Assembly (NCBI RefSeq): GCF_030403505.1
Contig: NZ_JAUEMJ010000005.1
Span: 62,001-126,000 of the forward strand
DNA from: Glycomyces tritici
GTDB taxonomy: Bacteria > Actinomycetota > Actinomycetes > Mycobacteriales > Micromonosporaceae
DNA length: 64,000 bases
Reading direction: 5' to 3'
Within the stretch, counting starts at the first letter, position 1, and each line of letters begins with the position of its first letter. The position numbers and the translations under genes were made by a program. A model generated the notes under the pieces. That model made no database searches and had not been told where the DNA came from. It saw nothing but the letters and a program-made list of their open reading frames with translations. This document shows, piece by piece, positions 31,180-48,682 of this stretch.

Positions 31180-32388
31180 TCAGGCCGCCTCGGGCTCGCG
31201 CACGCCCCTCCACATCGCGAGGAACGCCACGAGACCCACTGCGGCGCACATGATCCACACGAACGACTGCTCGATCTGGAACAGGTAGGTGCCCACGGCC
31301 GGCCCCAGCGCGTAGCCGCCGATCTGGGCCGTGGTGATCGCCCCGATGTAGCGGCTGCGGTGCCGGTCCGTGGGGGCCGCGAGCGCCGGGTACGCCACCA
31401 CCGAGGGCGCGGAGATGATCTCGCCGAACGTCCACACCAGGACCCCCGCGAAGCACACCCAGATCCCCGCCGGAACCCCGAACAGCGCCAGGCCCGCGCC
31501 GATGAAGAGGCTGCCGAACGCGATCGTCGTCCGCATCGGCAGCCGCTGCGCGTACCGGGTCACCGGCAGCTCGAACAGGATCACGATGGCGCCGTTCAAG
31601 GTCACGATCGTCCCGTACAGCCACGCCGGATGGCCCTCGCTCAGGATCTGCAGCGGCAGCACCGCCTGGTACTGCGACTCGATGAACCCGGTCAGGAACA
31701 TCGCGACGATCACCAGCACGTACTTCGAGTCCTTGAAGACGTCCCGGTAGCTCACCGCCCGCGCTTCGTCGGGCGACTCCTCACCGTCGCGCGCGTTCGG
31801 GAGCAGGAGCAGCGCGATGAGCCCGAACGCGATGTGCGTCAACGCGTTCACCACGAACATCAGCGCGAACGAATGCGTCAGCAGCCACACCCCGAGCATC
31901 GGCCCGGCCGCCGCGCCGACGTTCAGCCCCAGCCGCGCCGCGGCCGAGACCATCACGAGCCGCTGCGGCGGCGTCAGCGCGGCCATCATCGCCGCGGCCG
32001 CGGGCCGGTACATCTGCCCGAACAGGCCCGCCGCGAACGCGAGCGCGACGAGCAGCCGGTAGTCGTCGGCGAACGCGACCCCGAGCACCGCCAGTCCGGA
32101 GAGGAGCATCGACCCGACGATGACCTGCCGGGCGCCCCACCAGGCCGTGACCGTGCCCGAGGCGAAGCTCCCGACTATCGAGCCGACGCCGAACACCGTG
32201 AGCGCGAGCCCCGCGCCGGCGGGGGAGTGGCCGAGATCGGTGAGGTAGAGCGTGAGGAAGACCGCGATGAAGGTGCCGGTGCGACTCAGCGCGATGCCGA
32301 CGAGGAGGGTGATGACCGACGGCGGCAGGTCCCGCAGGGTGGACCAGACGCCGTCGTCGGCCTCCTCGGGGGCGCGGGTCCCGCTCAT
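31180..32388 (-). CDS. MFS transporter at the end of the leftward biosynthetic operon
   Basis: 402-residue major-facilitator protein with about 12 predicted membrane helices. It shows the loop 2-3 motif as GTVTAWWGARQVIVG and a central charged loop (NARDGEESPDEARAVS) between the two six-helix halves. It resembles drug-efflux and sugar-efflux MFS proteins. The ATG at 32388 overlaps the upstream ATP-grasp stop in an ATGA, so it is translated with the biosynthetic enzymes. That supports export of the cluster product or self-resistance. The cluster has a second MFS protein at 42715. Confidence 0.88.
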   Translation of the reverse strand: MSGTRAPEEADDGVWSTLRDLPPSVITLLVGIALSRTGTFIAVFLTLYLTDLGHSPAGAGLALTVFGVGSIVGSFASGTVTAWWGARQVIVGSMLLSGLAVLGVAFADDYRLLVALAFAAGLFGQMYRPAAAAMMAALTPPQRLVMVSAAARLGLNVGAAAGPMLGVWLLTHSFALMFVVNALTHIAFGLIALLLLPNARDGEESPDEARAVSYRDVFKDSKYVLVIVAMFLTGFIESQYQAVLPLQILSEGHPAWLYGTIVTLNGAIVILFELPVTRYAQRLPMRTTIAFGSLFIGAGLALFGVPAGIWVCFAGVLVWTFGEIISAPSVVAYPALAAPTDRHRSRYIGAITTAQIGGYALGPAVGTYLFQIEQSFVWIMCAAVGLVAFLAMWRGVREPEAA

Positions 32389-33608
32389 GCGGCTCCCCGC
32401 AGCGGCGTGCACTCGAAGATCGTCTCGGCTTCGGCGCGGTCGAGGATCTCCTGGCACTCGTTCGCACTGCCGCCCATGGCGATCAGGCAGCCGTAGCGGG
32501 CGATGTACCCGTCCGGCGGCATGAGGAGCTCGTCCCCGGGGGCCGCGACCTGGACCGTCTCGAGTTCGCCGGCGCGCGCGGGCGGGAGCGCGATCTTATC
32601 GACGACCGCGCTGCAGGGCGGCACGAGGAACCGGATGGCGGCGTGGCGGTCCTGGCGGTGGGTGAGGTCGGGCCGTGCGCCGAGGGCGAGCCGGGTGCCC
32701 GCGACGCCGGAGTCGATCCCGTTGGCCAGCATGCCGAGATAGGGGATGAGGTCGCCGCCGAGCCGGCCGTTGATCTCCACCAGGACGGGGCCTGAGGGGG
32801 TCAGTTTGACCTCGGTGTGGGTGCTGCCGTGGCGCCAGCCGACCGCTTCGTGGGCGGCGGCGAGCATGCCGGTGAGTGCCGCGTCGGCCAGCAGCGGGTC
32901 GTGCGGGTCGACGGTGTGCCCCATCTCCTCGAAGTACGGTTCGGGTCCGATCTGCTTGCGCGCCAGCGCGTACGGCAGGTACTCGCCGTCGATGACGGCG
33001 GCGTCCACGCTGATCTCGGGCCCGGTGAGGTACTGCTCCAGGAGCAGCGTCCCGTCGTTGCGCATGCCCGCCTGCCGGGTCCGCCTCGCCGCCGCGACGG
33101 CCGCGGCCAGGTCCTCGGCCCGGTCCACTTTGATCACGCCTTGGCTCGCGCCGAGTGCGATGGGCTTGACCACCAGAGGGAATCCGATCGCGGCGGCCGC
33201 CTGAGCCCCGCCTTCACCCGGGGCGAGGACGTGGAAGGCCGGTTGCGGCAGCCCCGCTTCGGTGAGGGCCCGGCGGGTGGCGGACTTGTCGCGGACGGCC
33301 CGCACCGCTTCGGGGTCGGGGCCGGGCAGGCCGAGTTCGGCGGCGGCTTCGGAGGCGGCCTGGACGGCGGCCTCGTGCCAGCAGAACACGCCGAGGACGT
33401 TGTGCTCGGCGGCGACCCGCCGCACGGCGTCGCGGGCCGCTTCGGGGTCGAACACGTCGCAGACGGTGTGCCCGGCGAGGTACTTCGCCTGCCAGGTCGG
33501 CTCGGCGGGGTCGAGCGCCCACAAGGGGGGCCCGTCCGCGGCGGCGGAGGCCAGGAGGTACTCGCGGAACAGCTCGTGCCCGGTCCCCATGATCAGCAGC
33601 AGGTCCAT
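32385..33608 (-). CDS. ATP-grasp carboxylate-amine ligase (cluster ligase A)
   Basis: 407-residue enzyme of the ATP-grasp superfamily, which activates a carboxylate as acyl-phosphate and joins it to an amine. The N-terminal Rossmann-like region is followed by RDKSATRRALTEAGLPQP and the LVVKPIALGASQGV nucleotide loop near residue 150. HTEVKLTP and the Mg-binding motif LVEINGRLGGDL (Glu and Asn both present) complete the site near residue 270. It is closest in style to L-amino-acid ligases (BacD-type). In the cluster it could couple an amino acid to the aryl acid made by the rightward operon. It is separated by 19 nt from the N-oxygenase and overlaps the MFS gene. Confidence 0.85.
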   Translation of the reverse strand: MDLLLIMGTGHELFREYLLASAAADGPPLWALDPAEPTWQAKYLAGHTVCDVFDPEAARDAVRRVAAEHNVLGVFCWHEAAVQAASEAAAELGLPGPDPEAVRAVRDKSATRRALTEAGLPQPAFHVLAPGEGGAQAAAAIGFPLVVKPIALGASQGVIKVDRAEDLAAAVAAARRTRQAGMRNDGTLLLEQYLTGPEISVDAAVIDGEYLPYALARKQIGPEPYFEEMGHTVDPHDPLLADAALTGMLAAAHEAVGWRHGSTHTEVKLTPSGPVLVEINGRLGGDLIPYLGMLANGIDSGVAGTRLALGARPDLTHRQDRHAAIRFLVPPCSAVVDKIALPPARAGELETVQVAAPGDELLMPPDGYIARYGCLIAMGGSANECQEILDRAEAETIFECTPLRGAA

Positions 33609-33627
33609 CGGCGTCGCTCCATTCTGG

Positions 33628-34575
33628 TCAGGGCAGGATCAGGCCTTGCTCGGTGAACGCGTCCCGAGCGCCGGGCTGGTCGAGGACGCCCACTTCCTCG
33701 AACAGCCGCAGGGTCTTCGCCGCCGAGTGCCGGATGCCGGCCAGCACCCGCTCGCTCGAGAAGGAGTCGGCGATGACGTCCTTCACCTGCGTCTCGCTGA
33801 GCCCGGTGGACAAGAGCGCGTCCCGCGCGGGGTCGGTGGCCGGGCGCAGCGACCGGAGGACGAGCGGCGGCAGGTAGTGCGCGACCCGCTGCCGCAGCGG
33901 CGGTTCGAGCCGGCTCCACAGGTGCTTGAAGAAAGCGCTGAAGAAGGCGTGGTGGCGGCCTTCGTCGATCGCGTGCTCGCGCACGGTCTCGCGCATGATG
34001 GTCACGACGCTCTCGTCCGGCGGGATGTCGGAGAGGATCGAGGTCACGAGCGTCTCGAACACCACGACCTGGAGCAGTTCCACGAGCTTGCGGTGCTGCG
34101 GGAACTCCTCGCCCACGGCGTCGAGCCCGGCGATGAACGGCCCGAAGTCGTAGTCCAGCGCCGGGATCCCGGAGCGGTTCACGAGCTGGTGCTGGACGTC
34201 GAGGCTGTACAGCGAGTGGTACCCCTCGTCGACGACGATCTTGTACGCGTCCATGCGGGTCGTCTCGTGCAGGTGCAGTCCGCTGGAGCCGTCCGCGATC
34301 TTCTGCGAGGCGCGCACGACCACCGCGACCTCGAAATGCATCGTGAACCGCAGCCACTGGTACGCGTGCTGCGCCGTCAGGTACCGGCGCAGCACGGGGT
34401 CGTCCTGATCGAGGAGCGGGTGGTCCAGGTGCGGCACCAGGTGCTCGGGGAAGAACGCCTTGTGGATGTCGTCCTCGGCGTCGATCATCTTGCGGTGCTC
34501 GGCCCGGACGCCGGCGCGTTCGTACCAGTTGCGGAAGGCCTCGATCCGCGGCATCGGGGCGTCGCCTGTGAACAC
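33628..34575 (-). CDS. AurF-type di-iron arylamine N-oxygenase
   Basis: 315-residue member of the p-aminobenzoate N-oxygenase family (AurF, CmlI), which turns aryl amines into hydroxylamines or nitro groups. All seven iron ligands are visible: E82, E117 and H120 (EGYH), E174, H201, E205 and H208 (EGRH). The spacings 35, 3, 27, 4 and 3 equal those of AurF; only the central gap differs (57 against 60). The GTG at 34575 has GGGAG upstream and begins 2 nt after the carbamoyltransferase stop. The substrate is inferred to be the arylamine acid produced by the divergent operon. A different di-iron reaction is possible. Confidence 0.85.
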   Translation of the reverse strand: MFTGDAPMPRIEAFRNWYERAGVRAEHRKMIDAEDDIHKAFFPEHLVPHLDHPLLDQDDPVLRRYLTAQHAYQWLRFTMHFEVAVVVRASQKIADGSSGLHLHETTRMDAYKIVVDEGYHSLYSLDVQHQLVNRSGIPALDYDFGPFIAGLDAVGEEFPQHRKLVELLQVVVFETLVTSILSDIPPDESVVTIMRETVREHAIDEGRHHAFFSAFFKHLWSRLEPPLRQRVAHYLPPLVLRSLRPATDPARDALLSTGLSETQVKDVIADSFSSERVLAGIRHSAAKTLRLFEEVGVLDQPGARDAFTEQGLILP

Positions 34576-34577
34576 GG

Positions 34578-36317
34578 CTACTCCCGGGTCCGCGCGGGGT
34601 GGTCGGCGGGCAGCTCGCGCCCGGGCTTGCCCACCAGGTACCCCTCGATGTAGAGGTGGTCGATCTCGGTGCGGGCGAAGGTCCGCAGCGCGTCCTCGGG
34701 GGTCTCGACGATCGGCTCGCCGTTGTCGTTGAACGAGGTGTTGAGGACGATCGGCACACCGGTGCGCTCGGCGAAGTGCGCGATCAGCTCGTGGTACTCG
34801 GGGTCCACTGCGGCGTCGACGGTCTGGACGCGGGCGGTGCCGTCCACATGGGTGATCGCGGGCAGCCCGTCGCGGCGGTCCTCGCGGACCGAGGGGACCA
34901 GCAGCATGAACGGGCTCGAACCGCGGAAGTCGAACCAGTCCTCGACGGCCTCGGCGAGCACCGAGGGCGCGTAGGGCCGGAACGGCTCCCGGTGCTTCAC
35001 GGTGTCGTTCAGGTAGTCGCGCACGCGCGGGTGCCGCGGGTCGGCGAGGATCGACCGGTGCCCGAGCGCGCGCGGGCCCATCTCGGAGCCGCCGTTCACC
35101 CACGCCACGATGCGGTGCTCGGCCAGCAGGTCGGCCACCTCGCTGATCGGGGCCTGCCGCCACTCCAGCGTGCCTTCGTACGCCTGCAGCGCTTCGAGGA
35201 CGCGCTCCTGCGAATAGCGCTGCCCGTAGGCGGCGGTGGTCATCTGCCCGCGCCGCTCGGTCCCGCCTTCGAGGATCTGGTGCCAGCCGTACAGGGCCGC
35301 GCCGATGGCGACGCCGGAGTCGCCGGCCGGGGCCGGGATGAACACCTCCTTGAAGGGGCCCTCGGCGAGGACGCGGTGGTTGGCGACCGAGTTGAGCATG
35401 ACGCCGCCGCCGAGGCAGAGCCTGGTCTCGCCGGTGCGGCGGTGCGCCTCCCCGGCGAGGTGCAGCATGGCCTCCTCGAGCTCGTCCTGGACCTTGCGCG
35501 CCACGTCCTTGGCGAACCGGCAGTCCCAGCGCCGCTCGGTGAGCGACTCGAACTCGGCGCCGTCTGAGGCGACGATGTCCTTCCAGATCTGCTCGAGACC
35601 CGCCTGGGAGACGGTGATGTCGAAGCCGTCGAAGGTGAGCCACCGGCCCCAGTCGGGCCGGGGCTCGCCGTAGGGCGCCAGGCCCATCGTCTTGCCGGCC
35701 TCGGGGTAGCCGCCGCACTCGAAGACTCCGAAGTCGGGCGTCCCGTACCGGGTGGTGAACCCGAGCTTGGCGGTGAAGAAGTCGTAGAACAGCCCGATGC
35801 TCATGTCGCTGTAGTCGACCGGGTACGCCGTCTCGGCCACGCGGGTGAGTTCGACGCCGCTGCCGGTGAACAGGGTGTGCTTCTCGACCATGCCTTCGCC
35901 TGAGCGGCTGCCGGCCTGGTCGACGATGAGCACGGCCGCCCGCTCGAACGGCGAGGTGTAGAACGCGGTGGCGGCGTGCGCCAGGTGGTGCGAGGGGAAC
36001 GGGAAGGCCCGCACCTTGCTCTTGTCCTTGAGCGGCAGGTCGCGCAGGATGCGCGGGACCGTGCGGTCGCCGAGCGGCCGGTTGCCGACGATGAGGTCGA
36101 CCTCGTCGATGCCGATCCCGGCGGCGTCGAGGCAGTAGGCGATGGACTTGATCGGGATGAGTTTCGTGAGGCGCTCGAAGTGGCCCTGGATCAGGAACCC
36201 TTCGGAGTGCTTGATGCGGTCGAGCCGCTCCTCCTCGATCGCGGCGAGGACCTCGCCGTCCTTGACGATGGCGGCCGAGCGGTCGTGGCTGAGGTTGACG
36301 CCGAGGATGTAGGTCAT
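34578..36317 (-). CDS. NodU/TobZ-family O-carbamoyltransferase (cluster CTase 1)
   Basis: 579-residue enzyme expected to transfer a carbamoyl group from carbamoyl phosphate, via carbamoyl-adenylate, to a hydroxyl, often on a sugar. The N-terminal Kae1-like domain starts LGVNLSHDRSAA and has the iron-binding HHLAH motif and CLGGGVMLNSVA. The C-terminal YrdC-like part has GGSEMGPRALGHRSI, the KHREPFRPYAPSV stretch and LNTSFN. All family motifs are intact. It lies 2 nt before the N-oxygenase and 33 nt after CTase 2. With three glycosyltransferases in the divergent operon, a carbamoylated sugar is a sensible product. Confidence 0.92.
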   Translation of the reverse strand: MTYILGVNLSHDRSAAIVKDGEVLAAIEEERLDRIKHSEGFLIQGHFERLTKLIPIKSIAYCLDAAGIGIDEVDLIVGNRPLGDRTVPRILRDLPLKDKSKVRAFPFPSHHLAHAATAFYTSPFERAAVLIVDQAGSRSGEGMVEKHTLFTGSGVELTRVAETAYPVDYSDMSIGLFYDFFTAKLGFTTRYGTPDFGVFECGGYPEAGKTMGLAPYGEPRPDWGRWLTFDGFDITVSQAGLEQIWKDIVASDGAEFESLTERRWDCRFAKDVARKVQDELEEAMLHLAGEAHRRTGETRLCLGGGVMLNSVANHRVLAEGPFKEVFIPAPAGDSGVAIGAALYGWHQILEGGTERRGQMTTAAYGQRYSQERVLEALQAYEGTLEWRQAPISEVADLLAEHRIVAWVNGGSEMGPRALGHRSILADPRHPRVRDYLNDTVKHREPFRPYAPSVLAEAVEDWFDFRGSSPFMLLVPSVREDRRDGLPAITHVDGTARVQTVDAAVDPEYHELIAHFAERTGVPIVLNTSFNDNGEPIVETPEDALRTFARTEIDHLYIEGYLVGKPGRELPADHPARTRE

Positions 36318-36350: not shown

Positions 36351-38060
36351 TCAGCCGCTGTTGCGGCGGTAGAGGGTGCCTTCGCTCCAGACGAGGTCGA
36401 CGCGGCCCCAGGCGAGGGCGGAGGCGACGTCGGGGAAGAACCCGCTGCCCTTGAGGTTCGCGCTGGTGTTGCACAGCACGGGGATGCCGCTGACCGCGAA
36501 GTAGGACTCGAGGAGGCGCCGCACGGCGCCGTCGCCGCGTCCGACGGTCTGGAGCCGGGCCGTCCCGTCGAGGTGGACGATCGCGGGGATGCGGGCCCGC
36601 CACTCGGGGCGGACCTCGTGGTCGAAGAGCATGTACGGGTCCGGGCTGCCGGGGGTGAAGACGCCGGGGGCGGCCTCTTCCAGGCAGATCGGCGCCACGG
36701 GCCGGTACGGTTCGCGGTCCTTGACCTCGTTGAGGCGGTCCTTCATCTTCGGCGAGGTGGCCGGGGCGATGATCGACCGGCTGCCGAGCGCGCGCGGCCC
36801 GAGTTCGGCGCGGCCGTCGAGGACCACGCACGGCTCGCCGGTGCGGTGGAGGATCCGGCCCAGCTCCTCCTCGTCCACCGCGGCGGTGCTCCAGCCTGCG
36901 GGGACTTCGGGGGTGGGCTTGAGCGCGGGGCCGAGCTTCACATGCCAGTCGACCGGTGCGGCCGGGTTCGCACGGCCCAGGGCCGCCGCGCCGATCGCCG
37001 ATCCGGAGTCGTTGGGGAACGGCGGCACCCACACGTCCGTGAACTCATCGAGCGCGCGGAGCCGGGAGTTCCACTTGATGTTCAGGGCGCAGCCGCCGAC
37101 GAAGCAGAGGTTCCAGGGGCCCTCGCCCCGCCACTCGCGCACCTTGGCCCGCAGCCCCTCGGAGAGGAGCCGTTCGAGGAACACGTGGACGCTGGCGAGC
37201 ACGTCCGCGTCGGAGGCGGCGCTGAGGCCGGCGCCGCGCACGATCCGCTTGACCTCGCGGAAGTAGTGGTGCAGGTAGTCGAGCACCGGTTCGGAGGTGG
37301 AGCCGAAGCCGCCCACCGCATGGCGGTAGCCGACCGCCAGGGGCTCGGCGCCGAGGAAGTTCTCCTCGTACTTCTCCCGCAGCACGGCGATGACGTCCTC
37401 TTTGGGCGATCCGAGCGCGATGTACGCCATGAGCTTGCCGGCCACCGAGAGGTCCTCGTTGACCGAGGCGGGGCGCTCGTCCCAGTGGAACGGTCCGAAG
37501 TGGTGCGCGGCGACGGCGTACGTGTGCCCGGTGAGCGGGAACAGCGCGCCGCCGTTCTCGACCGTCCCGTCCGGGTCGACGTGGTAGAGCCGCGGGAAGC
37601 TGCCGCCGTCCCACACCAGGACCAGCGCGCTCTCGCGCCGCTGCCCGAAGGGGCTGAGGCCGTAGGCGCTCGCCACGTGGCCGGCGACGTGGACATGGCT
37701 CGTGTAGGGCCGCGCCCTGCCCGCGATCGGCAGGGTCCCGTCGAATCCGGGCTCGAACAGGTTCGGCACGGCCTCGGTCTCGCGGTAGGGGGCGAGCTGG
37801 AGCAGGACGGGCTCGCCGTCCGACTCGAGGCTCACCTGCCCGTACTTGGCGCCGTCCCAGCCGTCGACGACCCACCGGTCGACCTGGTCGGGCCGGTAGC
37901 CGAAGTCGGCGAGGAGCTCGGTGACGACGGCGAGGTCGGCCACCTGGCCGTGCCGGGCGCCGTTGCCGAGCTTCTCCATCTCGACGCTGAAGACCAGCCG
38001 GTCGCCGTCGATGAGCGCGACGGCGCCGTCGTGCGTGAGTTTGAGGCCGCAGACGATCAT
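36351..38060 (-). CDS. NodU/TobZ-family carbamoyltransferase (cluster CTase 2)
   Basis: 569-residue paralogue of CTase 1, clearly diverged. It starts VCGLKLTHDGAVAL; the metal motif is HVAGH (HxxxH kept, second His of HHxxH lost). GGCALNIKWN, ELGPRALGSRSI, KDREPYRPVAPI and CNTSAN follow. It should therefore be active, with a different acceptor. Its ATG overlaps the ATP-grasp stop in an ATGA. Two family members side by side suggest two carbamoylated positions, or one enzyme with a changed role. Sequence alone cannot decide. Confidence 0.9.
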   Translation of the reverse strand: MIVCGLKLTHDGAVALIDGDRLVFSVEMEKLGNGARHGQVADLAVVTELLADFGYRPDQVDRWVVDGWDGAKYGQVSLESDGEPVLLQLAPYRETEAVPNLFEPGFDGTLPIAGRARPYTSHVHVAGHVASAYGLSPFGQRRESALVLVWDGGSFPRLYHVDPDGTVENGGALFPLTGHTYAVAAHHFGPFHWDERPASVNEDLSVAGKLMAYIALGSPKEDVIAVLREKYEENFLGAEPLAVGYRHAVGGFGSTSEPVLDYLHHYFREVKRIVRGAGLSAASDADVLASVHVFLERLLSEGLRAKVREWRGEGPWNLCFVGGCALNIKWNSRLRALDEFTDVWVPPFPNDSGSAIGAAALGRANPAAPVDWHVKLGPALKPTPEVPAGWSTAAVDEEELGRILHRTGEPCVVLDGRAELGPRALGSRSIIAPATSPKMKDRLNEVKDREPYRPVAPICLEEAAPGVFTPGSPDPYMLFDHEVRPEWRARIPAIVHLDGTARLQTVGRGDGAVRRLLESYFAVSGIPVLCNTSANLKGSGFFPDVASALAWGRVDLVWSEGTLYRRNSG

Positions 38061-39448
38061 GCGTCAGCCCTTCTCGATTCGTGGCCCTTGGCGAGCAGGG
38101 ATTCCAGGTTGTCGAGGACGTGGTAGGCGTCCGCGACGAGGGTGTCGGCCGAGGCGGCCCGGAGCATGAAGATGCCGCCGTAGCCGAGTGCGCCGGTGCT
38201 GAGGTCGTAGGCGGGCATGGGGGTCCCGGCCGGGATGCAGAGGCCGGGGACGGCGGTGACCGTCGTGGCCGGGTCGACGACGCCCGTCCAGTCCACGAGG
38301 GATTCGTCCCAGACGGAGTGGTCGGTCCACGGCCGCCCCGCCGAGTCGGTGGCGATGAGCGACAGCGATCCGGCCGCGCCCGTGGCGTCGGTGTCGAGGA
38401 GCATCCGCGCGGGCGGGTCGATCGGCTCGCCCAGGAGCGCGTCGGTGAGCATCCCGACGATGTCGACGCCGAAGCAGTGCTCGATCTCGGCCGCGACCAT
38501 GACGCCGCCGAGCCGCGCGGCCGACTCCAGGACCGACAACCGTCCGTCGGGGCAGAGCTTGAGCTCGGTGTGGGTCCCGCAGTAGTCGAGTTCGAGGGCG
38601 TCCACCGCGGCGCGGGCGACGCGTTCGATCTCCCGTTGGGCCGCTTCGGGAAGCGCGCACGGCGCGAGGTTGCTCAGCTCGGTGAACGGCGGGATCGTGG
38701 GAATGCGCGAGGTGATGCAGACCGGGTGGTAGACCCCGCCGGCGACCACGCCCTCGACGCTCAGGTAGTCGCCGTAGCCGCTTTCGGGGTCCCACCAGGA
38801 CTCGGTGCCGGACTGGATGACCTCCTCCACGAGGAAGTCCGCGTCGGCCCCGGCGACCTGCATCTCGGTGTAGCCGCGCTCGCGCGCCCGGATCATGGCC
38901 TCGTTCGCCTGCGCCCAAGCGGGTTCGACGTCCGCCTCGGTCTCGAGCACGATCTGGCCGATGGCCCCGGCGCCCCAGGCGTGCTTGAGCAGCATCGGGG
39001 CGTCGAGTTCGCGGAAGGCGTCGCGGAGGTCCGCGGCGGAGTCTACGGGCCGGAACCGCGGCACCGGGACTCCGGCGTCCTCCCACACCTGCCGCATCCG
39101 GCGCTTGTCGCGGGAGTTGACGGCATTGGGGCCGGCGCCGCGCAGACCGAGGCGCTCGGCCGCTTCGGCGACGGCGATGACCGCGTACTCCGAGAGCGTC
39201 AGGACCGCGTCCGCGCCGATCCGCCGGGCCTCGTCGACGATGAGGCCGACCAGGTCGTCACCAGTGCGCTCGATCTCCCAGCGGGGGGTCACCGAAGCGC
39301 AATGCGGACTCCACAGTGGTTCGGTATGAGTCGGCGGCGGCTTGAGTGCGAGTACGTGCAATTCGGCCTTGGACGCAATTTTCGGAAAGGCGTACTCGAG
39401 TGGCGCGCCGCCGCGCGAATAGACGAAGAGCACCTTTTTTCCAGGCAC
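38057..39448 (-). CDS. ATP-grasp ligase with altered metal motif (cluster ligase B)
   Basis: 463-residue ATP-grasp protein and first gene of the leftward operon. It has GLRGAGPNAVNSRDKRRM before the ATP-grasp core, then MLLKHAWGAGAIGQ and a CGTHTELKLCPDG segment near residue 320. The metal motif reads LESAARLGG: the Glu and Arg stay, but the usual Asn is Ala (ligase A has EINGRLGG). A long C-terminal domain of about 120 residues follows, as in amino-acid ligases acting on bulky substrates. The GTG at 39448 has AGGGAG 8 nt upstream, and it is divergent from the chorismate aminase. Reaction assumed to be amide formation. Confidence 0.82.
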   Translation of the reverse strand: MPGKKVLFVYSRGGAPLEYAFPKIASKAELHVLALKPPPTHTEPLWSPHCASVTPRWEIERTGDDLVGLIVDEARRIGADAVLTLSEYAVIAVAEAAERLGLRGAGPNAVNSRDKRRMRQVWEDAGVPVPRFRPVDSAADLRDAFRELDAPMLLKHAWGAGAIGQIVLETEADVEPAWAQANEAMIRARERGYTEMQVAGADADFLVEEVIQSGTESWWDPESGYGDYLSVEGVVAGGVYHPVCITSRIPTIPPFTELSNLAPCALPEAAQREIERVARAAVDALELDYCGTHTELKLCPDGRLSVLESAARLGGVMVAAEIEHCFGVDIVGMLTDALLGEPIDPPARMLLDTDATGAAGSLSLIATDSAGRPWTDHSVWDESLVDWTGVVDPATTVTAVPGLCIPAGTPMPAYDLSTGALGYGGIFMLRAASADTLVADAYHVLDNLESLLAKGHESRRADA

Positions 39449-39967
39449 AGTCGTCTCCCTACTGTGATGGCGAGAAGAACGCGGGGAAGGGGTCCGGCCC
39501 CGCATGCGAGCGGGTCGGCTATAGGGGTATCGGGTTCCAGGCGGTGACACGACGTGTCGGGCCGGTGACGATCGTATGAGACGCGGGGGCCCGTGTCAAG
39601 CACGTCCTGGAATGCGCTTCCACAGTGGTGGGAGTGCATGAGCTGGCAACACTGAGGCGTGATGGTTCCATTGTGACCAGAGGTGTCGCACCGTCGGCGG
39701 AACCCACCGTGCGATGCGTGCGGAGTGTCCCGAACGCCGGATCTATGACCACAGTCACAAACGCCGGATCACCGTGGATTTCGCCGCCGCTGAGCACCGC
39801 AATCGTCACCGTGGGGAGTCGCCGCATGTTCGAAGACTTTCGCACCAGGGGCCTCAATGGATGCAGTTCATCCCAGTCGGCCCAATGGTGTGGGAGCGTT
39901 GCGCAACGGTATTGGGCGGCCGATGCTAATCTGACCCGATCCCCCAGCCGGCGAAAGGGCCCCATTG
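39449..39967. promoter_or_regulatory. 519-bp divergent control region of the biosynthetic cluster
   Basis: This region separates the two operons and is clearly less GC-rich than its flanks. No convincing gene is present: open frames on either strand (39625-39984, 39519-39965) show no codon-bias signature and no family resemblance. A perfect 12-bp palindrome, CGTTGCGCAACG (39897-39908), lies 60 bp before the rightward start, followed by TAATCT (39927-39932), a possible -10. Leftward, TATAG (39519-39523, read on the minus strand) is a weaker -10 candidate. No regulator gene is found in the cluster, so control may come from elsewhere. Confidence 0.5.
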
Positions 39968-41497: not shown

Positions 41498-42090
41498 AGG
41501 CACTGCTCATCGACGCGTACGACAGCTTCGCGCACATCATCTACCAGTACCTGCGCGTCCTCGACATCGACACGGACGTGATCCGCTCCGGCGACATCGC
41601 GCCCGCCGGGGCCCTCGCCCACGACGCCGACTTCGTCCTCCTCGGCCCCGGACCCGGCACCCCCGAGGACTCCGGCCACGTCGAGATGGTCCGCGCCCTC
41701 GCCGGCGTCAAACCCGTCCTCGGCGTCTGCCTCGGCCACCAGGCCATCGGCGTCGCCTTCGGCGCCCAGGTGCGGCCGGCCCGCCACCTCATGCACGGCA
41801 AGACCAGCACCGTCGAGCACGACGGCCGCGGCGTCTTCACCGATGCGCCGCAACGCTTCAGCGCCACCAGGTACCACTCGCTGATCATCGTCGAGGACAC
41901 CCTCCCCGACGAGCTCGAAGTGACCGCCCGCGCCGCCGACGACGGCTACGTCATGGGCGTGCGGCACCGCGGCCACCTCATCGAAGGCGTCCAGTTCCAC
42001 CCCGAGTCGATCCTCACCGAATCCGGCATGGGTCTCTTCGCCGGGTTCGCCGCCGCCGTCCGCGCGCAGCCCGCAGAGGCCCGCGCATGA
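41494..42090 (+). CDS. Class I glutamine amidotransferase subunit (TrpG/PabA-type)
   Basis: 198-residue partner that releases ammonia from glutamine for the chorismate aminase. The catalytic triad is visible: C79 in GVCLGHQ, H169 and E171 in QFHPES. GPGPGTPEDSG near residue 51 completes the family pattern. The start ATG lies within the previous stop (ATGA), giving tight 1:1 coupling of the two subunits. In PhzE these two are fused; here they are separate. Its own stop overlaps the flavoprotein start. Confidence 0.93.
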   Translation: MKALLIDAYDSFAHIIYQYLRVLDIDTDVIRSGDIAPAGALAHDADFVLLGPGPGTPEDSGHVEMVRALAGVKPVLGVCLGHQAIGVAFGAQVRPARHLMHGKTSTVEHDGRGVFTDAPQRFSATRYHSLIIVEDTLPDELEVTARAADDGYVMGVRHRGHLIEGVQFHPESILTESGMGLFAGFAAAVRAQPAEARA

Positions 42091-42710
42091 AGATCCTGAC
42101 GATCAACGGCTCCGAGCGCTCCCGCGGCTCCACCTGGCTCGCCGTCCAGGCCATCGTGGAGCGCGCCCGCGCCCGCGGCTGCGAGACCCGCGAAGTCGAC
42201 CTCGCCGAGCAGCGCGTCGTCCGCTGCGACTGCGGCCGCTGCAACTCCCGCCCCGACCCCTGCCCCGTGGACGACGACGTGGGCGCGATCGTCGCCGCCA
42301 TGGTCGAGGCGGACGCCGTCTTCCTCGCCGCGCCCGTGCACGGCTTCGGCCTCTCCTCGCTCATGCAGACCTTCGTCGAACGCGCCGGGGTCGGGCACCT
42401 GCGCTTCGAGCGGCCCCTCACCAACACCATCGGCGCCGCCGTCGTCATCGGCCGCCGCTACGGCCACCTCGACGTGCACGCCCAGCTCCTGCACAACCTG
42501 CTGCTCAACCGCTTCATCATCGTCGGCAGCGGCTTCCCCGTGACCATCCACTCCGGAGGCGAGCAGGGCGTCCTCTCCGACACCGAGGGCATGGAGGCGC
42601 TGCACCGCACCGTCGACCGGATCATCGACATCGGCACCGCCCTCGCCGAGTCCGGGACGCGGCTGCCGCGCCCGGCCGAGGTCGAACGACGCGTCGGAAG
42701 GACGAGCTGA
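42087..42710 (+). CDS. Flavodoxin-fold reductase with four-Cys motif (Isf/SgcG-like)
   Basis: 207-residue FMN protein of the NADPH-dependent reductase superfamily: the phosphate loop is NGSERSRGST at residues 7-16. A compact cysteine cluster (C47, C49, C52, C59) matches in position the iron-sulfur motif of archaeal Isf proteins. SgcG of C-1027 biosynthesis is an Isf-type enzyme that oxidises ADIC to 3-enolpyruvoylanthranilate. Finding this family directly coupled (ATGA) to a PIAGT-type aminase pair is the main reason to propose the same step here. A simple FMN reductase supplying the N-oxygenase is the alternative. Confidence 0.75.
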   Translation: MKILTINGSERSRGSTWLAVQAIVERARARGCETREVDLAEQRVVRCDCGRCNSRPDPCPVDDDVGAIVAAMVEADAVFLAAPVHGFGLSSLMQTFVERAGVGHLRFERPLTNTIGAAVVIGRRYGHLDVHAQLLHNLLLNRFIIVGSGFPVTIHSGGEQGVLSDTEGMEALHRTVDRIIDIGTALAESGTRLPRPAEVERRVGRTS

Positions 42711-42714
42711 CCGA

Positions 42715-43950
42715 GTGACCACGACGCAGGCCCCGCAGGCCCTCCCCTGCGGCCTGGGCCTCCTCATCGGCAGCAAGTTCGCCTCCACCGTCGCCTACGC
42801 GACCTCGTGGGTCCTGCTGCCGCTCTACGTCTACCAGGCGAGCGGCTCGGCCGTGCTGACCGCGCTGGCCTCCGCGGCGAACGTGCTCCCGTTCCTCCTC
42901 TTCGGACTCTTCGCCGGGGCCGCCGTCGACCGCTCCTCGCCGGTGCGGGTCATGGCCTGGATGGAAGTGGCCAACGCCGCCGTGCTGCTGTGCGTGCCGC
43001 TCCTGGCCGCCACGATCGGCGCGGGCCCGGTCCTCCTGTGCGCCATCGGGTTCGCCTCCGCGACCGCATACGTCTGGTTCGACGTGGCCAGCGCGGCGCT
43101 CCTCCCGGCGCTCGCCGGGGCCGACGGGGTCTTCCGCGCCAACAGCTACCTGTGGATGACCACCACGGTGCTCACGGCCGTCGCCGCCCCGGTCGGCTAC
43201 TTCCTGCTCGACGCGCTCCGGCTCGGCCCCACGTTCGCCGTCCTCGCGGGCTGCTACCTGCTCTCGGCGGTGCTCATCGCCGCGATCCGGCCGCGCCCGG
43301 ACACGGCCGGCTCCGCCCGGCCCGAGCCCGGCGCGGTCTGGGCCGGCGTCAAGTACCTGGCCGCACACCCGCTGCTGCGGGCCTACACCACGGTGAACGT
43401 GGGCGTCGGGGTGAGCGCCGGGGCCGTCTACGGGATGCTGGTCGTCTTCGCCTCCCGCGCGCTCGGCCTGCCCAGCGACGACTACCGGGTGGCGTGGATC
43501 GTCGCCGCGTCAGGGGTGGGCGCGCTGGTGGGCGCGATCGCGGCCCGGCGCTTCAAGGGCGTGCCGCCGATCCCGGCGGCCCGCTGGATGACCGGCCTCG
43601 ACCTGGTCCTGCTGCTCGCGTACGCCGCCGCGCCGTCCTGGCAGCTGGCCGCCGTGCTGCTCCTGTGCTGGAACACCGTCCACACCTGCTTCCTGGTGGT
43701 GGGCATCTCGGTGCGCCAGACGGTGACGCCGCAGCGGCTCCAGGGCCGGGTGAACGCGGTGGGCCGCATGATCGTCTGGGGCTCGGTGCCGCTCGGTACG
43801 CTGCTGTGCGGCGGCCTCACCGAACTCATCGGTCCACGGTGGGCACTGGCCGCCCTGGGCGTGTTCGCGTTCGCGAGCCTCGTCGCCGCTCTGCGCGCCC
43901 CCAGCGCGCTCACCATGGACAACGCACTTCTTGAGAAAGCAGAGACATGA
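42715..43950 (+). CDS. MFS transporter of the rightward biosynthetic operon
   Basis: 411-residue major-facilitator exporter with about 12 predicted helices. The first is at residues 15-35, and the loop 2-3 motif is GAAVDRSSPVRVM. It resembles macrolide-efflux-type MFS proteins. The GTG at 42715 follows the flavoprotein stop by 4 nt, and its end overlaps the glycosyltransferase start (ATGA). Together with the MFS protein at 31180 it gives each arm of the cluster its own transporter, suggesting export of the final product plus resistance or intermediate export. Confidence 0.88.
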   Translation: MTTTQAPQALPCGLGLLIGSKFASTVAYATSWVLLPLYVYQASGSAVLTALASAANVLPFLLFGLFAGAAVDRSSPVRVMAWMEVANAAVLLCVPLLAATIGAGPVLLCAIGFASATAYVWFDVASAALLPALAGADGVFRANSYLWMTTTVLTAVAAPVGYFLLDALRLGPTFAVLAGCYLLSAVLIAAIRPRPDTAGSARPEPGAVWAGVKYLAAHPLLRAYTTVNVGVGVSAGAVYGMLVVFASRALGLPSDDYRVAWIVAASGVGALVGAIAARRFKGVPPIPAARWMTGLDLVLLLAYAAAPSWQLAAVLLLCWNTVHTCFLVVGISVRQTVTPQRLQGRVNAVGRMIVWGSVPLGTLLCGGLTELIGPRWALAALGVFAFASLVAALRAPSALTMDNALLEKAET

Positions 43951-45179
43951 CCTCATCCCGTCCACTGAGGGTGCTCTTCGTGGCCTTCAGCCGCTCCAGC
44001 CTCGGCCACGTGACGCGCATGCGCACGGCCGCCAGGCGCTTCGCCGACGCCGGGCACATCGTGGCCGTCGCCGCCCACGAGGAGGTCCGGCACCTCATCG
44101 AGCACGCCGGGCTGGCATGGATCGGCATCGACGAGATCGGGCCCGCCCCGGCCTGGCGCGGCATGAGCGATGTCGCGAGCCTGCGCGCGTTCGCCCGCAC
44201 GCGGCTCGCCAGCCCCATCTACGTGCAGGCCTCCCTGCGCGACGAGCTGCGCGCCATCGACGAGTTCGGGCCGGACGCCGTGGTCAGCGACATGCGCAAC
44301 ACCGCGTCCGTGGCGGCCTCGATGCGGGGGCTGCCGAGCTTCACCTGCCACAACCTGCGGCTGTTCAAGCACCCGATGCACGCGGTGCTCCCGGAGATCC
44401 TGGCGACCCTGGAGGCGATCGGCGTCGAGCCCGAGCACCGTGTGCCCCTTGGGGACGCGGTGCTCGTGCCGGACCTGCCGCTGCTGGACCCGCTCTCCGG
44501 CGTCCCGGCCGAGACCGCCGGGCTCATGGCCGAGCTGACCGCGGAGATCCGCCACATCGGACCGCTCGTGCCGCAGGAGCTGCTGGCGCCGCCGGTCGCT
44601 TCGATGCGCGAACCGGTCCTGAACATCACGCTCGGCGGTTCGGGCGCGGGGGACAAGGACCTGCTGCGGGTCGTGGCCGCCGCGAGCGGCCTCGGGGTGC
44701 GCCTCGCGGTCACCCTCGGCGTGGAAGGCCCCGACAGCGACGCGCTCGCCGACCAGGTGCGGGCCGCGGCGGGGGGCGCCGAGACCGAGATCGCGGCGTT
44801 CCGGCACGACGCGGTCGACCTCATGGCGCGCAGCGCCGCCGCGGTCGTCCATGGTGGACACTCCTCGATGATCGAGGGACTGCTGTGCGCGACGCCGCTG
44901 GTGTTCACGCCGCACTCCGCCGAGCAGCGCGGCAACGCCGCCCGCGTGGCCGCGCTCGGCCTCGGGACGGTCGTCGCCGACGACGACCCCGCCGACGCCG
45001 TCACCGACGCGATCCGCGCGGCGCTCGCCGCCGACCGGGGGCCGCACGACGCGTTCGCCGCCGTGCTGCGCTCCGCCGACGGCGCGGGCGCGATGCTCGA
45101 GACCGTCGAGCGCGCGGTGGCACTGTACCGCGCCCACAGCCGTGCGGGCGTGGCGAACGGGGCCGCCGGTGCGCGCTGA
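43947..45179 (+). CDS. GT-B glycosyltransferase (UGT/MGT-like)
   Basis: 410-residue two-domain transferase of the GT1/GT28 type. The N-terminal acceptor domain begins VLFVAFSRSSLGHVTR, with the Gly-His pair typical of this group. The C-terminal donor domain has LNITLGGSGAGD near residue 230 and the HGGHSSMIEGLL signature near 305, which binds the nucleotide-sugar diphosphate. It is expected to put a sugar on the cluster's aromatic or amide scaffold. Start codon overlaps the MFS stop (ATGA); its stop overlaps the next gene by 11 nt. Confidence 0.85.
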   Translation: MTSSRPLRVLFVAFSRSSLGHVTRMRTAARRFADAGHIVAVAAHEEVRHLIEHAGLAWIGIDEIGPAPAWRGMSDVASLRAFARTRLASPIYVQASLRDELRAIDEFGPDAVVSDMRNTASVAASMRGLPSFTCHNLRLFKHPMHAVLPEILATLEAIGVEPEHRVPLGDAVLVPDLPLLDPLSGVPAETAGLMAELTAEIRHIGPLVPQELLAPPVASMREPVLNITLGGSGAGDKDLLRVVAAASGLGVRLAVTLGVEGPDSDALADQVRAAAGGAETEIAAFRHDAVDLMARSAAAVVHGGHSSMIEGLLCATPLVFTPHSAEQRGNAARVAALGLGTVVADDDPADAVTDAIRAALAADRGPHDAFAAVLRSADGAGAMLETVERAVALYRAHSRAGVANGAAGAR

Positions 45180-46263
45180 CATCGCTCTCTCCACCGCGAT
45201 CATGACCCACCCGGCCCGCGAGGACCGCGCGCGCAAGCTCGCCGAATCGCTGCCGGACCTCAACCCGGCCGTCCTCGTGGACGACACCGAACCCGGCCGG
45301 GGCAACCTCGGCAACGCCCTGCGCGCCTGGGGCGCAGTGGGGGAGGACGCCACGCACCACCTGGTGCTCCAGGACGACGTCGTCCCCTGCGACGGCTTCA
45401 CCGCGCTGGTGCGCCGGGCGGTCGGCGCCCGCCCGGACGCCGCGATCAGCCTGTTCTGCGAATGGGGTTCGCGCAGTGCGACCCTCGCGCGCGTCGCGGC
45501 CCGCCGCGGCTGGGGCTGGGCCCGCGCGGTCGACATGTACACGCCCTCGCAGGGCCTCGTCATGCCGCGCGACACCGCCCTCGCCTTCGCGGCCACCGAG
45601 GACGCCGGCGGCGCCGACGACCTCGCGCTCGTCGCCTACCTGCGCGGGAACGGCGTCGAGAACCTCGTCACCGTGCCGAACCTGCTCGAGCACGACGACC
45701 GGTTGAGCCTGACCGCCAACGGGTTCCAGGGTCCGCGGCTCGCCGTCTGCACCGCGCCCGCCGGCGCCGACCCGGACTTCGGCACGCCCGCCGCCGGGAC
45801 CGGCCTCACGCGGCTCCCGTACGCCTCCTGGATGCGGGTCCACGCCGAGTGGTTCTACTGCGGCGAGTCGCCCGAGGCGTACACGTGGCTCGGGGAGTTC
45901 GGCGACACGCGCCTCCCCGAGGGCTTCCGCAAGACCGACCTGGCCGAGCGGTTCCGCGCGGACCTCGCCGAAGTCGGCGCGCCGCTGACGCAGGCGGCGA
46001 GCGAACTGACCCTCTTCGAGTACTGGACCGTCCACTTCGCACTCGGCCTCGTCCAGCCCGAACCGCTCGCAACCCCGCCCGGCCCGTTCGCCGAGGCCGC
46101 GTTCGCCACCGCGTTCCCCGGCCTGTTCCGCCGCTACCTGCCGCTGGACACCGTCGACGCCCTGCGCGGCAGCGCCGGCCGCCTCGCCGCCGCCGCGTTC
46201 GAACGCGGCGCCGCCGCCGACATCGAACGGCCGCAACCGGCCTGGTACGAGGAGACCCGATGA
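45169..46263 (+). CDS. Putative GT-A-type glycosyltransferase, unassigned family
   Basis: 364 residues; I do not recognise a named family. It looks like a GT-A nucleotide-sugar transferase: HLVLQDDVVPCDGF near residue 65 gives an Asp-Asp metal motif after a hydrophobic strand. An aromatic-rich segment (WGWARAVDMYTPSQG) and the acid-rich ATEDAGGADDLALV follow, a layout like GT25-type enzymes. The C-terminal third is helical. The GTG at 45169 is chosen because it starts just before the hydrophobic ADIALSTAIM strand; it overlaps the upstream gene by 11 nt and the P450 by 4 nt. A sugar-transfer role is inferred from the Asp motif and the two flanking transferases. Confidence 0.65.
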   Translation: MRADIALSTAIMTHPAREDRARKLAESLPDLNPAVLVDDTEPGRGNLGNALRAWGAVGEDATHHLVLQDDVVPCDGFTALVRRAVGARPDAAISLFCEWGSRSATLARVAARRGWGWARAVDMYTPSQGLVMPRDTALAFAATEDAGGADDLALVAYLRGNGVENLVTVPNLLEHDDRLSLTANGFQGPRLAVCTAPAGADPDFGTPAAGTGLTRLPYASWMRVHAEWFYCGESPEAYTWLGEFGDTRLPEGFRKTDLAERFRADLAEVGAPLTQAASELTLFEYWTVHFALGLVQPEPLATPPGPFAEAAFATAFPGLFRRYLPLDTVDALRGSAGRLAAAAFERGAAADIERPQPAWYEETR

Positions 46264-47678
46264 CCGTGCCCGGGCCCGCGCCCCACCGGTGGCTCGGGCG
46301 GCGGCGCAACGCCCACGAGTACGCCGTCGACCCGGTCGGCTACACCGCCCGCCTCCACCACGAGTACGGCCCCGTCAGCGGGCTCGTGCACGGGGACCGG
46401 CGCCAGGTCTTCGCGTTCGGGCCCGAGCACAACCGGACCGTCCTCACCCGCGGCGACACCTTCCACACCGTGCTCGAGTACGCCATCCCGCAGGGCATCC
46501 GGGACGCCAGGCGCGGCATCGGGCTGCTCAACATGAACGGCCCCGAGCACCGCCGGGCCCGCCGCGTCGCCACGCCCTCGTTCAGACCGCAGGCAGCTCT
46601 GGCGCACGGCGAGCTGATCGCCCGCCTCGCCGCCGAAGAGGTCGACTCGTGGATGCCCGGCGAGCCGTTCGACCTGACCGACCGGATGCGCCGCCTGACG
46701 CTTCGGATCGCGTGCCTGTGCTTCTTCGGCGTCGACATCGCCGCGCAGGCCGACCACATCGGACGCATGGTCCAGGACATGCTGGCGCTGCGCTACTTCG
46801 CCTCCTCCATCCGGTACTTCCCGTTCGACCTCCCCGGCACCCCGTACCGGCGGCTGCTCACCGTGATCCGCAGGCTCGACGGCGCGCTCGCCGAGATCAT
46901 CGAGACCCGCCGCGCCGGCGCCCGCCCCGAAGGCGCCGCCCCCGACCTGCTCCAGTCCCTCATGGACGCCCGCGGCGAGGACGGCGGCGCCTTCGGCGAC
47001 GACCAGCTCGTCGGGCAGCTCACGACCCTCCTCGTCGCCGGGCACGAGACCTCCTCGAACACCCTGGCCTGGACGCTCCTGCTGCTCTCGCAGCACCCGG
47101 CCGAACTCGACAGGCTCCTCGCGGCCCTTCCGGAACGGCCCGAGGGGCGGGCGGTCGCGCTCGAGTTCCCCGCGGGCCTGGACCACGTGCTCAAGGAGGT
47201 CCTGCGGCTCCTGCCGCCCGGACCCAACACCTCCCGGATCGCCGTGGAGCCCACCGAGATCGGCGGCCACGAGATCCCGGCCTGGTGCCAGGTCGTCACC
47301 AGCAAGTTCGCCACCCACCGCGACCCCGAGGTCTTCGCGGAGCCGCTCCGCTTCCACCCCGCCCGGTGGGAGACCCTGCGGCCCAGCCTGTACCAGTACC
47401 TGCCGTACGGGGCCGGCCCGCACGCCTGCATCGGCGCCGCGTTCGCCGACCTGGAGATGAAGACTGTGCTCGCCACCGTCCTCGGCCGCTACCGGCTCGA
47501 CCCGGCCCCCGGCGCCGACGTCTCGCGCCAGGTCGGACTCATGATGGCGCCCAAGGGACCCGTACCCGTGATCGCGCGCCCCCGCGCCGACCCGGCCCCG
47601 CCGCCCACCGCGGTCACGGGCGACCTGCACGACATGGTGGACCTCGACGGCGAGACCCGATGGAGGCTCGGATGGTAG
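46260..47678 (+). CDS. Cytochrome P450 monooxygenase
   Basis: 472-residue haem monooxygenase. The I-helix oxygen motif is AGHETSSN (residues 260-267), the K-helix ExxR is E313-R316 (KEVLR), and the haem ligand is C390 in YGAGPHACIG, where the usual Phe of FxxGxxxCxG is Tyr. It is longer than most actinobacterial P450s (about 400 residues) and nearer to CYP110-like or eukaryote-like class members, with an extra C-terminal tail after residue 440. It lies between two transferase genes with ATGA overlap. It could hydroxylate the aryl ring or a sugar; C-1027 also uses a P450 on its benzoxazolinate precursor. Confidence 0.9.
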   Translation: MTVPGPAPHRWLGRRRNAHEYAVDPVGYTARLHHEYGPVSGLVHGDRRQVFAFGPEHNRTVLTRGDTFHTVLEYAIPQGIRDARRGIGLLNMNGPEHRRARRVATPSFRPQAALAHGELIARLAAEEVDSWMPGEPFDLTDRMRRLTLRIACLCFFGVDIAAQADHIGRMVQDMLALRYFASSIRYFPFDLPGTPYRRLLTVIRRLDGALAEIIETRRAGARPEGAAPDLLQSLMDARGEDGGAFGDDQLVGQLTTLLVAGHETSSNTLAWTLLLLSQHPAELDRLLAALPERPEGRAVALEFPAGLDHVLKEVLRLLPPGPNTSRIAVEPTEIGGHEIPAWCQVVTSKFATHRDPEVFAEPLRFHPARWETLRPSLYQYLPYGAGPHACIGAAFADLEMKTVLATVLGRYRLDPAPGADVSRQVGLMMAPKGPVPVIARPRADPAPPPTAVTGDLHDMVDLDGETRWRLGW

Positions 47679-48682
47679 AACACCCCCAGGTCAGCCTGGT
47701 GATGGCGACCTGCGACAAGCGCGACTACCTCGCGCTCACCCTCGAATCCCTGCTGGCGCAGACCTACCGGCGGTTCGAGGTGGTCGTGTGCGACGACGGG
47801 ACCGCCGGCGGCGTCGCCGACATCGTCGACCCGCTCCGCGACCGGCTCGACCTCACCCTCGTGGTGCAGGAGAACCGGGGCCGCGCCGCCGCCCGCAACG
47901 CCGCCCTCGAACGCGCCCAAGGCGACCTCGTCGTCTTCATGGACGACGACCGCATGGCCGCCCCCGGCTTCGTCGCCGCCCACGTCGCCGCCGCCGGCGA
48001 CGACTCGCACGCCGCCATCGGCTGGAAGCGCCGCGCCCTCACCTGGTGGCGGCCCGGCGTCCTCCCCGTCGGCGAGGACGACCTCCTGCGGCTCGCCGAC
48101 CGCGTCGGCGGCGCCGAGCGGCTGCGCGAACCGATCCGCCTCCTCGAACCCGGCGACCTCGCCGCCGACCCCGAAGCGGCCCTGGCCCGCGTCGAACTGG
48201 GCGACGAGCCCGACAACTACCACGCGGTCGTCGAGGAGTACGGGACCAGCCTCGACGGCTTCCGGTTCGGATGGGCGCTGGCGACGACGGCGAACCTGGG
48301 CGTCTCGCGCGAGGCGGTCGCGAAGGCCGGCGGCTTCGACGAGTCCTTCACCGGCTGGGGCCTGGAGGACACCGACCTGAGCTACCGGCTGCACCGCCTC
48401 GGCATCCGGTTCTCGGTGCGCACCGAGGCCGTGAACCACCACCAGGTCCACCCGCTGGCCGATCCGAACCCGATGGTGGCGCAGCGGGTCATGCGCGCCC
48501 AGCTGATGCGCAACCTCGACCACTTCTGCCGGCGGCACCGCGCGCTCGACGCCTACCTGTTCCGGCGGCGCTGGGAGCACGCCATGACCCTGGCCGAGGC
48601 CGACCGGCTCCTGAAGCTGGTCGAAGGCGAGGAGGACCCGGTCCTGCGACGCGAGCTCGAATCGCTCTACGGGGACCGGTAA
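47672..48682 (+). CDS. Family 2 glycosyltransferase (GalNAc-transferase-like layout)
   Basis: 336-residue GT-A enzyme. VSLVMATCDKRDYL opens the nucleotide-binding fold; GDLVVFMDDDRM holds the metal-binding Asp cluster near residue 92; GWGLEDTDLSYRL near 230 is the acceptor and catalytic motif shared with polypeptide-GalNAc and chondroitin-type transferases. The ATG at 47672 is chosen for its GGAGG site 6 nt upstream; an in-frame ATG at 47660 lacks one. It overlaps the P450 by 7 nt and is the last gene of the rightward operon, which ends in a strong hairpin. Confidence 0.87.
   Translation: MVEHPQVSLVMATCDKRDYLALTLESLLAQTYRRFEVVVCDDGTAGGVADIVDPLRDRLDLTLVVQENRGRAAARNAALERAQGDLVVFMDDDRMAAPGFVAAHVAAAGDDSHAAIGWKRRALTWWRPGVLPVGEDDLLRLADRVGGAERLREPIRLLEPGDLAADPEAALARVELGDEPDNYHAVVEEYGTSLDGFRFGWALATTANLGVSREAVAKAGGFDESFTGWGLEDTDLSYRLHRLGIRFSVRTEAVNHHQVHPLADPNPMVAQRVMRAQLMRNLDHFCRRHRALDAYLFRRRWEHAMTLAEADRLLKLVEGEEDPVLRRELESLYGDR

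Follow-up and report, generated by a model that had tools for sequence, protein, structure and literature searches.

Do two divergent operons that stand back to back in the actinomycete Glycomyces tritici make one natural product, or have two unrelated pathways come to lie side by side? The question arises at positions 31180-48682 of a 64,000-nucleotide stretch of contig NZ_JAUEMJ010000005.1 (the window; G+C 71%), where 14 open reading frames (ORFs), 6 on the minus and 8 on the plus strand, mostly abut or overlap by a few bases. A left operon (31180-39448), marked by an AurF-type N-oxygenase and two carbamoyltransferases (CT1 and CT2), is separated by 519 bases from a right operon (39968-48682), marked by a chorismate aminase, a cysteine-rich flavoprotein and a GT28-like glycosyltransferase. 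A first-pass annotation had described these genes as two divergent, tightly packed operons, and the ORFs and their families agree with that description. It had also taken them for one cluster. The operons are instead two modules with separate histories, although it is plausible from their genomic distribution that they work together. On balance we lean towards two separately inherited modules placed back to back, a right operon of SgcD/SgcG type and a left one for N-oxidation, carbamoylation and coupling, with the left adding to, or working with, the product of the right.

The separate histories are seen in the distribution of the genes. The GT28-like gene was searched in 200 genomes of the family, of which 15 have it with an identity of 61% or above (genomes are labeled G, loci of relatives L and plasmid matches H). 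The flavoprotein occurs in 13 of these 15, which corresponds to 13 of the 33 Glycomyces and Catellatospora genomes (7/22 and 6/11, respectively). Eight of the 13 have the right operon and no left one. An AurF-type protein of at least 45% identity is found in five of the 15 (G001-G004 and G012), while G146 has two weaker matches (34-35%) and nine genomes have none; CT1 at 60% or more occurs in the same five, the others holding relatives of 36-47%. Left-type cassettes also occur in other genera (L021, L022 and L030), whose genomes give no match to the flavoprotein for L021 and L022 and a 26% match for L030, which also has an amidotransferase (39%). In G. paridis, the two are on different contigs, of 126 kb (left operon) and 171 kb (right operon). 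For these reasons the single cluster first proposed is an oversimplification.

The same facts lend weight to an alternative in which two unrelated pathways, differing in product and exporter, share an insertion-prone spot. Each of the operons comes with a separate MFS exporter and hairpin, and gene order is as expected of such a spot: in G155 the aminase follows a small gene beside a large helicase, whereas aminase and small gene are separated in the window by the left operon together with sugar-ABC genes. The evidence on the other side is co-occurrence. All five genomes with AurF beside CT1 also have the right operon, and the divergent order has been retained in the window as well as in G001, G002 and G004. 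In Glycomyces, AurF is present in 4 of 22 genomes, all among the seven with the right operon (P 0.0048). Among all 11 Catellatospora genomes, AurF of at least 45% identity is found in C. coxensis and G029. Pooled over the 33 genomes, 5/6 AurF genomes have the right operon (P 0.025); for AurF beside CT1 the count is 5/5 (P 0.0054, or 0.037 with near-twins collapsed). None of these P values takes account of the tree. Several points weigh against a functional tie, in addition to the separate contigs of G. paridis: with near-twins counted once, the Glycomyces value becomes 0.053 and the pooled value 0.12, and G029 carries its AurF (45%) without the right operon. By its coordinates, the G029 gene is the L039 locus, of a tryptophan-dioxygenase type described below, with no CT1 or ATP-grasp match there.

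A further argument comes from C. coxensis, in which a left-type cassette lies between the GT2 gene and a gene named by eye as aldo-keto-reductase-like. These two genes are neighbors in G143 and G100 and have one gene between them in G113; in G139 and G146 the aldo-keto-reductase-like gene was not seen next to GT2. The AurF, CT1 and ATP-grasp ligase 2 proteins of C. coxensis are 76-85% identical to those of L022 compared to 46-68% to those of the window, and the AurF tree separates the two cassettes, which therefore appear to have been recruited independently. Two unlike cassettes have thus become attached to the right operon, on opposite sides, and because of this the left module probably adds to, or works with, the right-hand product.

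A promoter-like element of the general form TGGGAGCG-N23/25-TGNTA lies before the aminase. With a spacing of 20-26, it has 12 matches in the 4.39 million strand-bases of all loci: ten precede an aminase (three of these being repeat fetches of places already counted), one precedes an orphan GT28-like gene (L125), and the last is in G. paridis, next to the left operon that is unlinked there and from which it points away, no aminase being downstream. The element was drawn from the same alignments in which it was then scored, so that only the empty background and the matches in L113 and L125 are independent. For the G. paridis match, a first, unspaced shuffle test gave a mixed outcome, with shuffles scoring as well in 34/300 cases against its own aminase promoter, 2/300 against L005, 13/300 against G155, 69/300 against the window and 106/300 against G098; the spaced element gives a stronger signal. 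The retention of this copy in G. paridis is a further point against unrelated pathways, the simplest reading being that an ancestral divergent pair was broken in this species. Taken with the co-occurrence and the two attachments, it leaves the side-by-side alternative unlikely, though it has to be taken seriously.

With two modules favored, each can be considered in turn. The chemistry with best support is that predicted for the right operon, from chorismate through 2-amino-2-deoxyisochorismate (ADIC) to 3-enolpyruvoylanthranilate. The aminase is 45% identical to C-1027 SgcD over 494 residues, and the flavoprotein is 49% identical to SgcG over 189 residues. SgcG and its kin are the best plasmid matches of the flavoprotein, which was correctly noticed from the outset to be rich in cysteines; its four clustered cysteines align with those of SgcG, the first-to-second spacing being one residue shorter. 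In a tree of 17 aminases, five from right operons form a group with L004 and three SgcG-linked aminases that is separated with 97/97 support from eight host TrpE/PabB-like rows; the order within the SgcD clade is not firm, the clade includes a cluster of non-SgcG type (L004), and long branches are flagged. It is from this kinship to SgcD and SgcG that 3-enolpyruvoylanthranilate is predicted as the unit. The chorismate-derived arylamine acid of the first-pass annotation is retained in its chorismate origin and aromatic amino-acid core, as an anthranilate rather than a p-aminobenzoate type. A p-aminobenzoate or nitroaryl route was rejected as the leading reading, since the 14 genes include no family match to an aminodeoxychorismate lyase (a search that did not extend to the host folate gene), the aminase groups with SgcD and the flavoprotein is SgcG-like.

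The closest described counterpart is C-1027 sgcD/sgcG, on Streptomyces globisporus plasmid SGLP1 (L126), where an amidotransferase gene likewise belongs to the row that contains both. Unlike C-1027, the window has no phenylacetate-CoA-ligase-like AMP ligase between them, and MFS, P450 and glycosyltransferase-like genes follow. In the Xenorhabdus xsb/benzobactin system, PMC10098953 describes an SgcG homologue that takes ADIC, and ADIC that can be “borrowed” from a phenazine enzyme. The window differs in having neither an NRPS nor an XsbC-like acyl-AMP ligase; an isochorismatase likewise had no match among the 14 genes. The AMP ligase that a benzoxazolinate cassette contains is missing, which tells against an SgcD/SgcG-type operon, and for lack of this ligase no benzoxazolinate product is proposed.

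It could also be argued that the aminase is an extra anthranilate synthase, that the flavoprotein has some other role and that the core is plain anthranilate. The best NCBIfam assignment of the aminase is TrpE (375 bits, cut-off 518), though SgcD is also assigned to TrpE (346 bits). According to PMC5958127, ADIC and anthranilate synthases are inseparable by sequence, which again counts against the ADIC prediction. In Catellatospora, moreover, the flavoprotein is retained in operons that have no aminase pair. This reading is nevertheless quite improbable, given a flavoprotein that is 49% identical to SgcG and present in 13/15 genomes with the GT28-like gene, an aminase that clusters with SgcD, and a PhzE-like protein in all Catellatospora genomes, though five of these have no flavoprotein.

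In detail, all six Catellatospora right operons are without aminase and amidotransferase, and ADIC might possibly be supplied in trans, borrowed as in Xenorhabdus. A PhzE-like protein (at least 75% identical to that of L118) occurs in 11/11 Catellatospora genomes, and the L118 protein scores 534 bits to PhzE 3r74, its next match scoring 65. It is no specific evidence of trans supply, because it is present whether the flavoprotein is (six genomes) or is not (five). The gene of this PhzE-like ADIC synthase lies at L118:2396-4306, and phenazine-type genes were not recognized by eye within 5.5 kb of L118. A 45% aminase match in five of the six Catellatospora was rejected as an ADIC synthase; it adjoins a HisI-like gene (by eye) in the two loci read and was taken as the host TrpE.

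The right operon is also found in reduced or dispersed form. In G098, the P450 and GT2 genes are not next to the operon, and in G172 neither is present in the 9 kb read of a 12.5-kb contig. G175 (L094) and G082 (L110) keep the GT28-like gene without the flavoprotein; in these two and at L125:2726-3934 it stands without the rest of the operon, and a lone GT28-like gene may serve in self-protection or have a role of its own. Elsewhere, an SgcG-like flavoprotein (52%) in Micromonospora orduensis (L087:4429-11116) lies near TrpB-like, UbiD/VdcC-like decarboxylase, ATP-grasp and MFS genes, possibly a different ADIC-type cluster, and SgcG-like (37%) and SgcD-like (42%) genes occur on Pseudomonas syringae/amygdali plasmids of about 73-80 kb (H45-H53, H58 and H59).

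The central enzyme of the left operon belongs to the AurF family (PF11583, 86 bits) and has the conserved E, E..H, E and H..E..H columns in its alignment, which we take to be the iron ligands. As a single sequence, it has no significant similarity to AurF (E 0.15) and matches 5hyg, presumably CmlI, at E 1.6e-4; a profile of its clade reaches AurF (E 5e-10) and 5hyg (E 9e-7). It is therefore like AurF and CmlI in family and metal-site pattern but unlike them in its gene neighbors, and in similarity that, for AurF, is at profile level only. Arylamines are the substrates of AurF and CmlI.

The neighbors of its kin point elsewhere. In 79 AurF loci, an OTC-type carbamoyltransferase is found in 25, SbnA in 16, SbnB in 9, ATP-grasp ligase 2 in 8, CT1 in 7, ATP-grasp ligase 1 in 6 and CT2 in 5. 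The closest cassettes in composition, of SbnA-AurF-OTC-ATP-grasp-CT1 type (L022, L024 and L030), match the window in AurF (46-49%), CT1 (65-68%) and ATP-grasp ligase 2 (44-48%). L022, with the order SbnA-AurF-OTC-ATP-grasp2-CT1-ATP-grasp1-MFS1, additionally shares ATP-grasp ligase 1 and MFS exporter 1. From these cassettes the Glycomyces operon differs in the presence of CT2 and the absence of SbnA, SbnB and OTC. For cassettes of SbnA-AurF-OTC type, no described product was found. Because many kin of the left cassette stand with diaminopropionate-type genes and an OTC-type carbamoyltransferase, N-oxidation of an arylamine, as first proposed, has no positive support, and the substrate of this distant relative of AurF is more likely the amine of a small amino acid.

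A single pathway, in which the AurF-type enzyme N-oxidizes a chorismate-derived arylamine acid that is then coupled, glycosylated and carbamoylated, is accordingly improbable. Its attractions are the known activity of AurF and CmlI, the reach of the clade profile to both, and the lack of any other predicted amine: since no SbnA match above 37% exists in the four Glycomyces genomes that carry the left operon, anthranilate is the sole amine whose synthesis can be predicted from the two operons. For want of SbnA, the amine in these four genomes could be aromatic; SbnB and OTC, looked for only near the operon, are absent there. A further AurF clade of 22 rows, with tryptophan-dioxygenase-like genes, also fits an aromatic substrate. 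Against this stand the insignificant single-sequence match to AurF, an aminase that points to anthranilate and not p-aminobenzoate, the frequency of SbnA and OTC in kin loci, and the right operons without AurF.

Other AurF relatives have quite different neighbors. The 22-row clade (L031, L034, L035, L038-L042, L045-L049, L052-L055 and others) has, by eye, tryptophan 2,3-dioxygenase-like, SDR and aminotransferase-like genes, and 11 AurF rows in L061-L083 have asparagine-synthase (AsnB)-like and PqqD-like genes (by eye and from plasmid annotation). Because AurF rows adjoin genes of such different kinds, the substrate is not readable from the family. At L010 (Streptomyces spiroverticillatus), AurF and an OTC-type gene lie, by eye, inside an NRPS-like cluster.

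The favored pathway of two joined modules, with left-module order and substrates inferred, would run as follows. The aminase and amidotransferase would convert chorismate into ADIC, as SgcD does, and the Fe-S flavoprotein would oxidize ADIC to 3-enolpyruvoylanthranilate, as SgcG does. The P450 and the three glycosyltransferase-like proteins would, judging from their families, decorate this unit, and MFS exporter 2 would export the product. In the left module, the AurF-type enzyme would N-oxidize an amine, a small amino acid being a likelier source of it than the arylamine, CT2 would carbamoylate the N-oxidized product, CT1 would add a second carbamoyl group, the two ATP-grasp ligases would form amide bonds and MFS exporter 1 would export the left-module product, the module adding to, or working with, the right-operon product. 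The glycosylated, carbamoylated and ATP-grasp-coupled product originally envisaged holds good as gene content, the reactions themselves following from family membership.

Carbamoylation of the AurF product is inferred because AurF pairs with OTC or CT2. In independent protein searches, an AurF row and a CT2 row fell on a contig of identical size for 17 of 118 typed AurF rows (120 listed); among the top 41 AurF rows with contigs of at least 8 kb the pairing was 15/22, compared to 0-2 in shifted controls, long shared contigs being no proof of adjacency. OTC and CT2 occur together in 0/79 AurF loci, where 1.6 would be expected (P 0.14; 0.45 with near-twins collapsed). As a signal of mutual exclusion this was rejected, being within chance. 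CT1 resembles the O-carbamoyltransferases TobZ, NovN and GdmN over nearly its whole length (236-253 bits), whereas CT2, which is NodU-like, is related to them more remotely (97-109 bits, with roughly half of the protein covered). A wider and rather doubtful proposal is that an AurF-type enzyme and a paired carbamoyltransferase, either OTC-type or NodU-type CT2, form a general unit carbamoylating a fresh hydroxylamine. It might yield N-hydroxyureas, O-carbamoyl hydroxylamines or, with a second carbamoyl, quisqualate-like oxadiazolidinedione amino acids, and would in Glycomyces and C. coxensis be joined to glycosylated 3-enolpyruvoylanthranilate.

The features of the locus are collected in Table 1. 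Its closest relatives are in Glycomyces, the AurF-type protein being 95-97% identical to those of G. luteolus, G. sp. YM15 and G. algeriensis.

Table 1. Features of the two operons and their flanks in the window
Feature	Position	Strand	Basis
Hairpin, 16-base arms, between sugar-ABC genes and left operon	31114..31156		z -5.3 vs shuffles
MFS exporter 1	31180..32388	-	PF07690
ATP-grasp ligase 1, L-amino acid ligase-like	32385..33608	-	PF13535
AurF-type di-iron N-oxygenase	33628..34554	-	PF11583 and alignment
Carbamoyltransferase CT1, NovN/GdmN/TobZ type	34578..36317	-	PF02543/PF16861; 253 bits to 9s2t
Carbamoyltransferase CT2, NodU-like	36351..38060	-	both Carbam_trans domains (Pfam)
ATP-grasp ligase 2, BacD-like	38057..39448	-	family match; probable GTG start at 39448
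Divergent intergenic region	39449..39967		
Promoter-like element TGGGAGCG-N25-TGCTA, upstream of aminase	39891..39928	+	single occurrence in window
Chorismate aminase, SgcD-type ADIC synthase candidate	39968..41497	+	PF00425; 45% to SgcD; tree
Glutamine amidotransferase partner	41494..42090	+	PF00117
Four-Cys flavoprotein, SgcG-type ADIC dehydrogenase candidate	42087..42710	+	49% to SgcG
MFS exporter 2	42715..43950	+	PF07690
GT28/MGT-like glycosyltransferase	43947..45179	+	family match
Pfam-less protein, possible GT-A fold glycosyltransferase	45169..46263	+	structure model
Cytochrome P450	46260..47678	+	PF00067
GT2 glycosyltransferase	47672..48682	+	PF00535
Hairpin, 14-base perfect arms, ending right operon	48682..48712		z -6.0 vs shuffles

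Pfam backs 13 of the 14 proteins (two MFS, two ATP-grasp, AurF, two carbamoyltransferases, chorismate-binding, GATase, FMN_red, GT28-like, P450 and GT2). By eye, the probable starts are the GTG listed for ATP-grasp ligase 2 and an ATG at 39968 for the aminase. Of the three glycosyltransferase-like proteins originally listed, the GT28-like and GT2 enzymes are confirmed by Pfam, while the third has no Pfam match. Its start is probably at 45169, which gives 364 residues, the length of its 100% match P0121. Its structure model (pLDDT 92) matches GT-A glycosyltransferases weakly (best E 2e-6, TM about 0.3-0.4), and glycosyltransferase-like is a fair but unproven assignment for the modeled protein. 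The strong terminators said to bracket the cluster are present as significant hairpins; both are without T-tracts, and a terminator scan listed neither. An EF-hand protein is encoded directly after the right-operon hairpin (48724-49407) and in G004, G155 and G175, too, adjoins the operon or what remains of it.

As first supposed, the 14 genes include no polyketide synthase (PKS), nonribosomal peptide synthetase (NRPS) or core of a ribosomally synthesized and post-translationally modified peptide (RiPP), and no cluster with this gene combination was found described in the open-access full-text literature. The enzyme kinds at this locus are known, while their arrangement is new. A chorismate route familiar from enediynes seems here to operate with neither PKS nor NRPS, in an operon of its own that also carries glycosyltransferase-like genes, and a separate cassette for N-oxidation and carbamoylation seems to have been placed beside this operon twice. 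The recurrent pairing of AurF with carbamoyltransferases (OTC in 25/79 loci and CT2 in 5/79) offers a hypothesis that could be tested on many orphan genes of AurF type.

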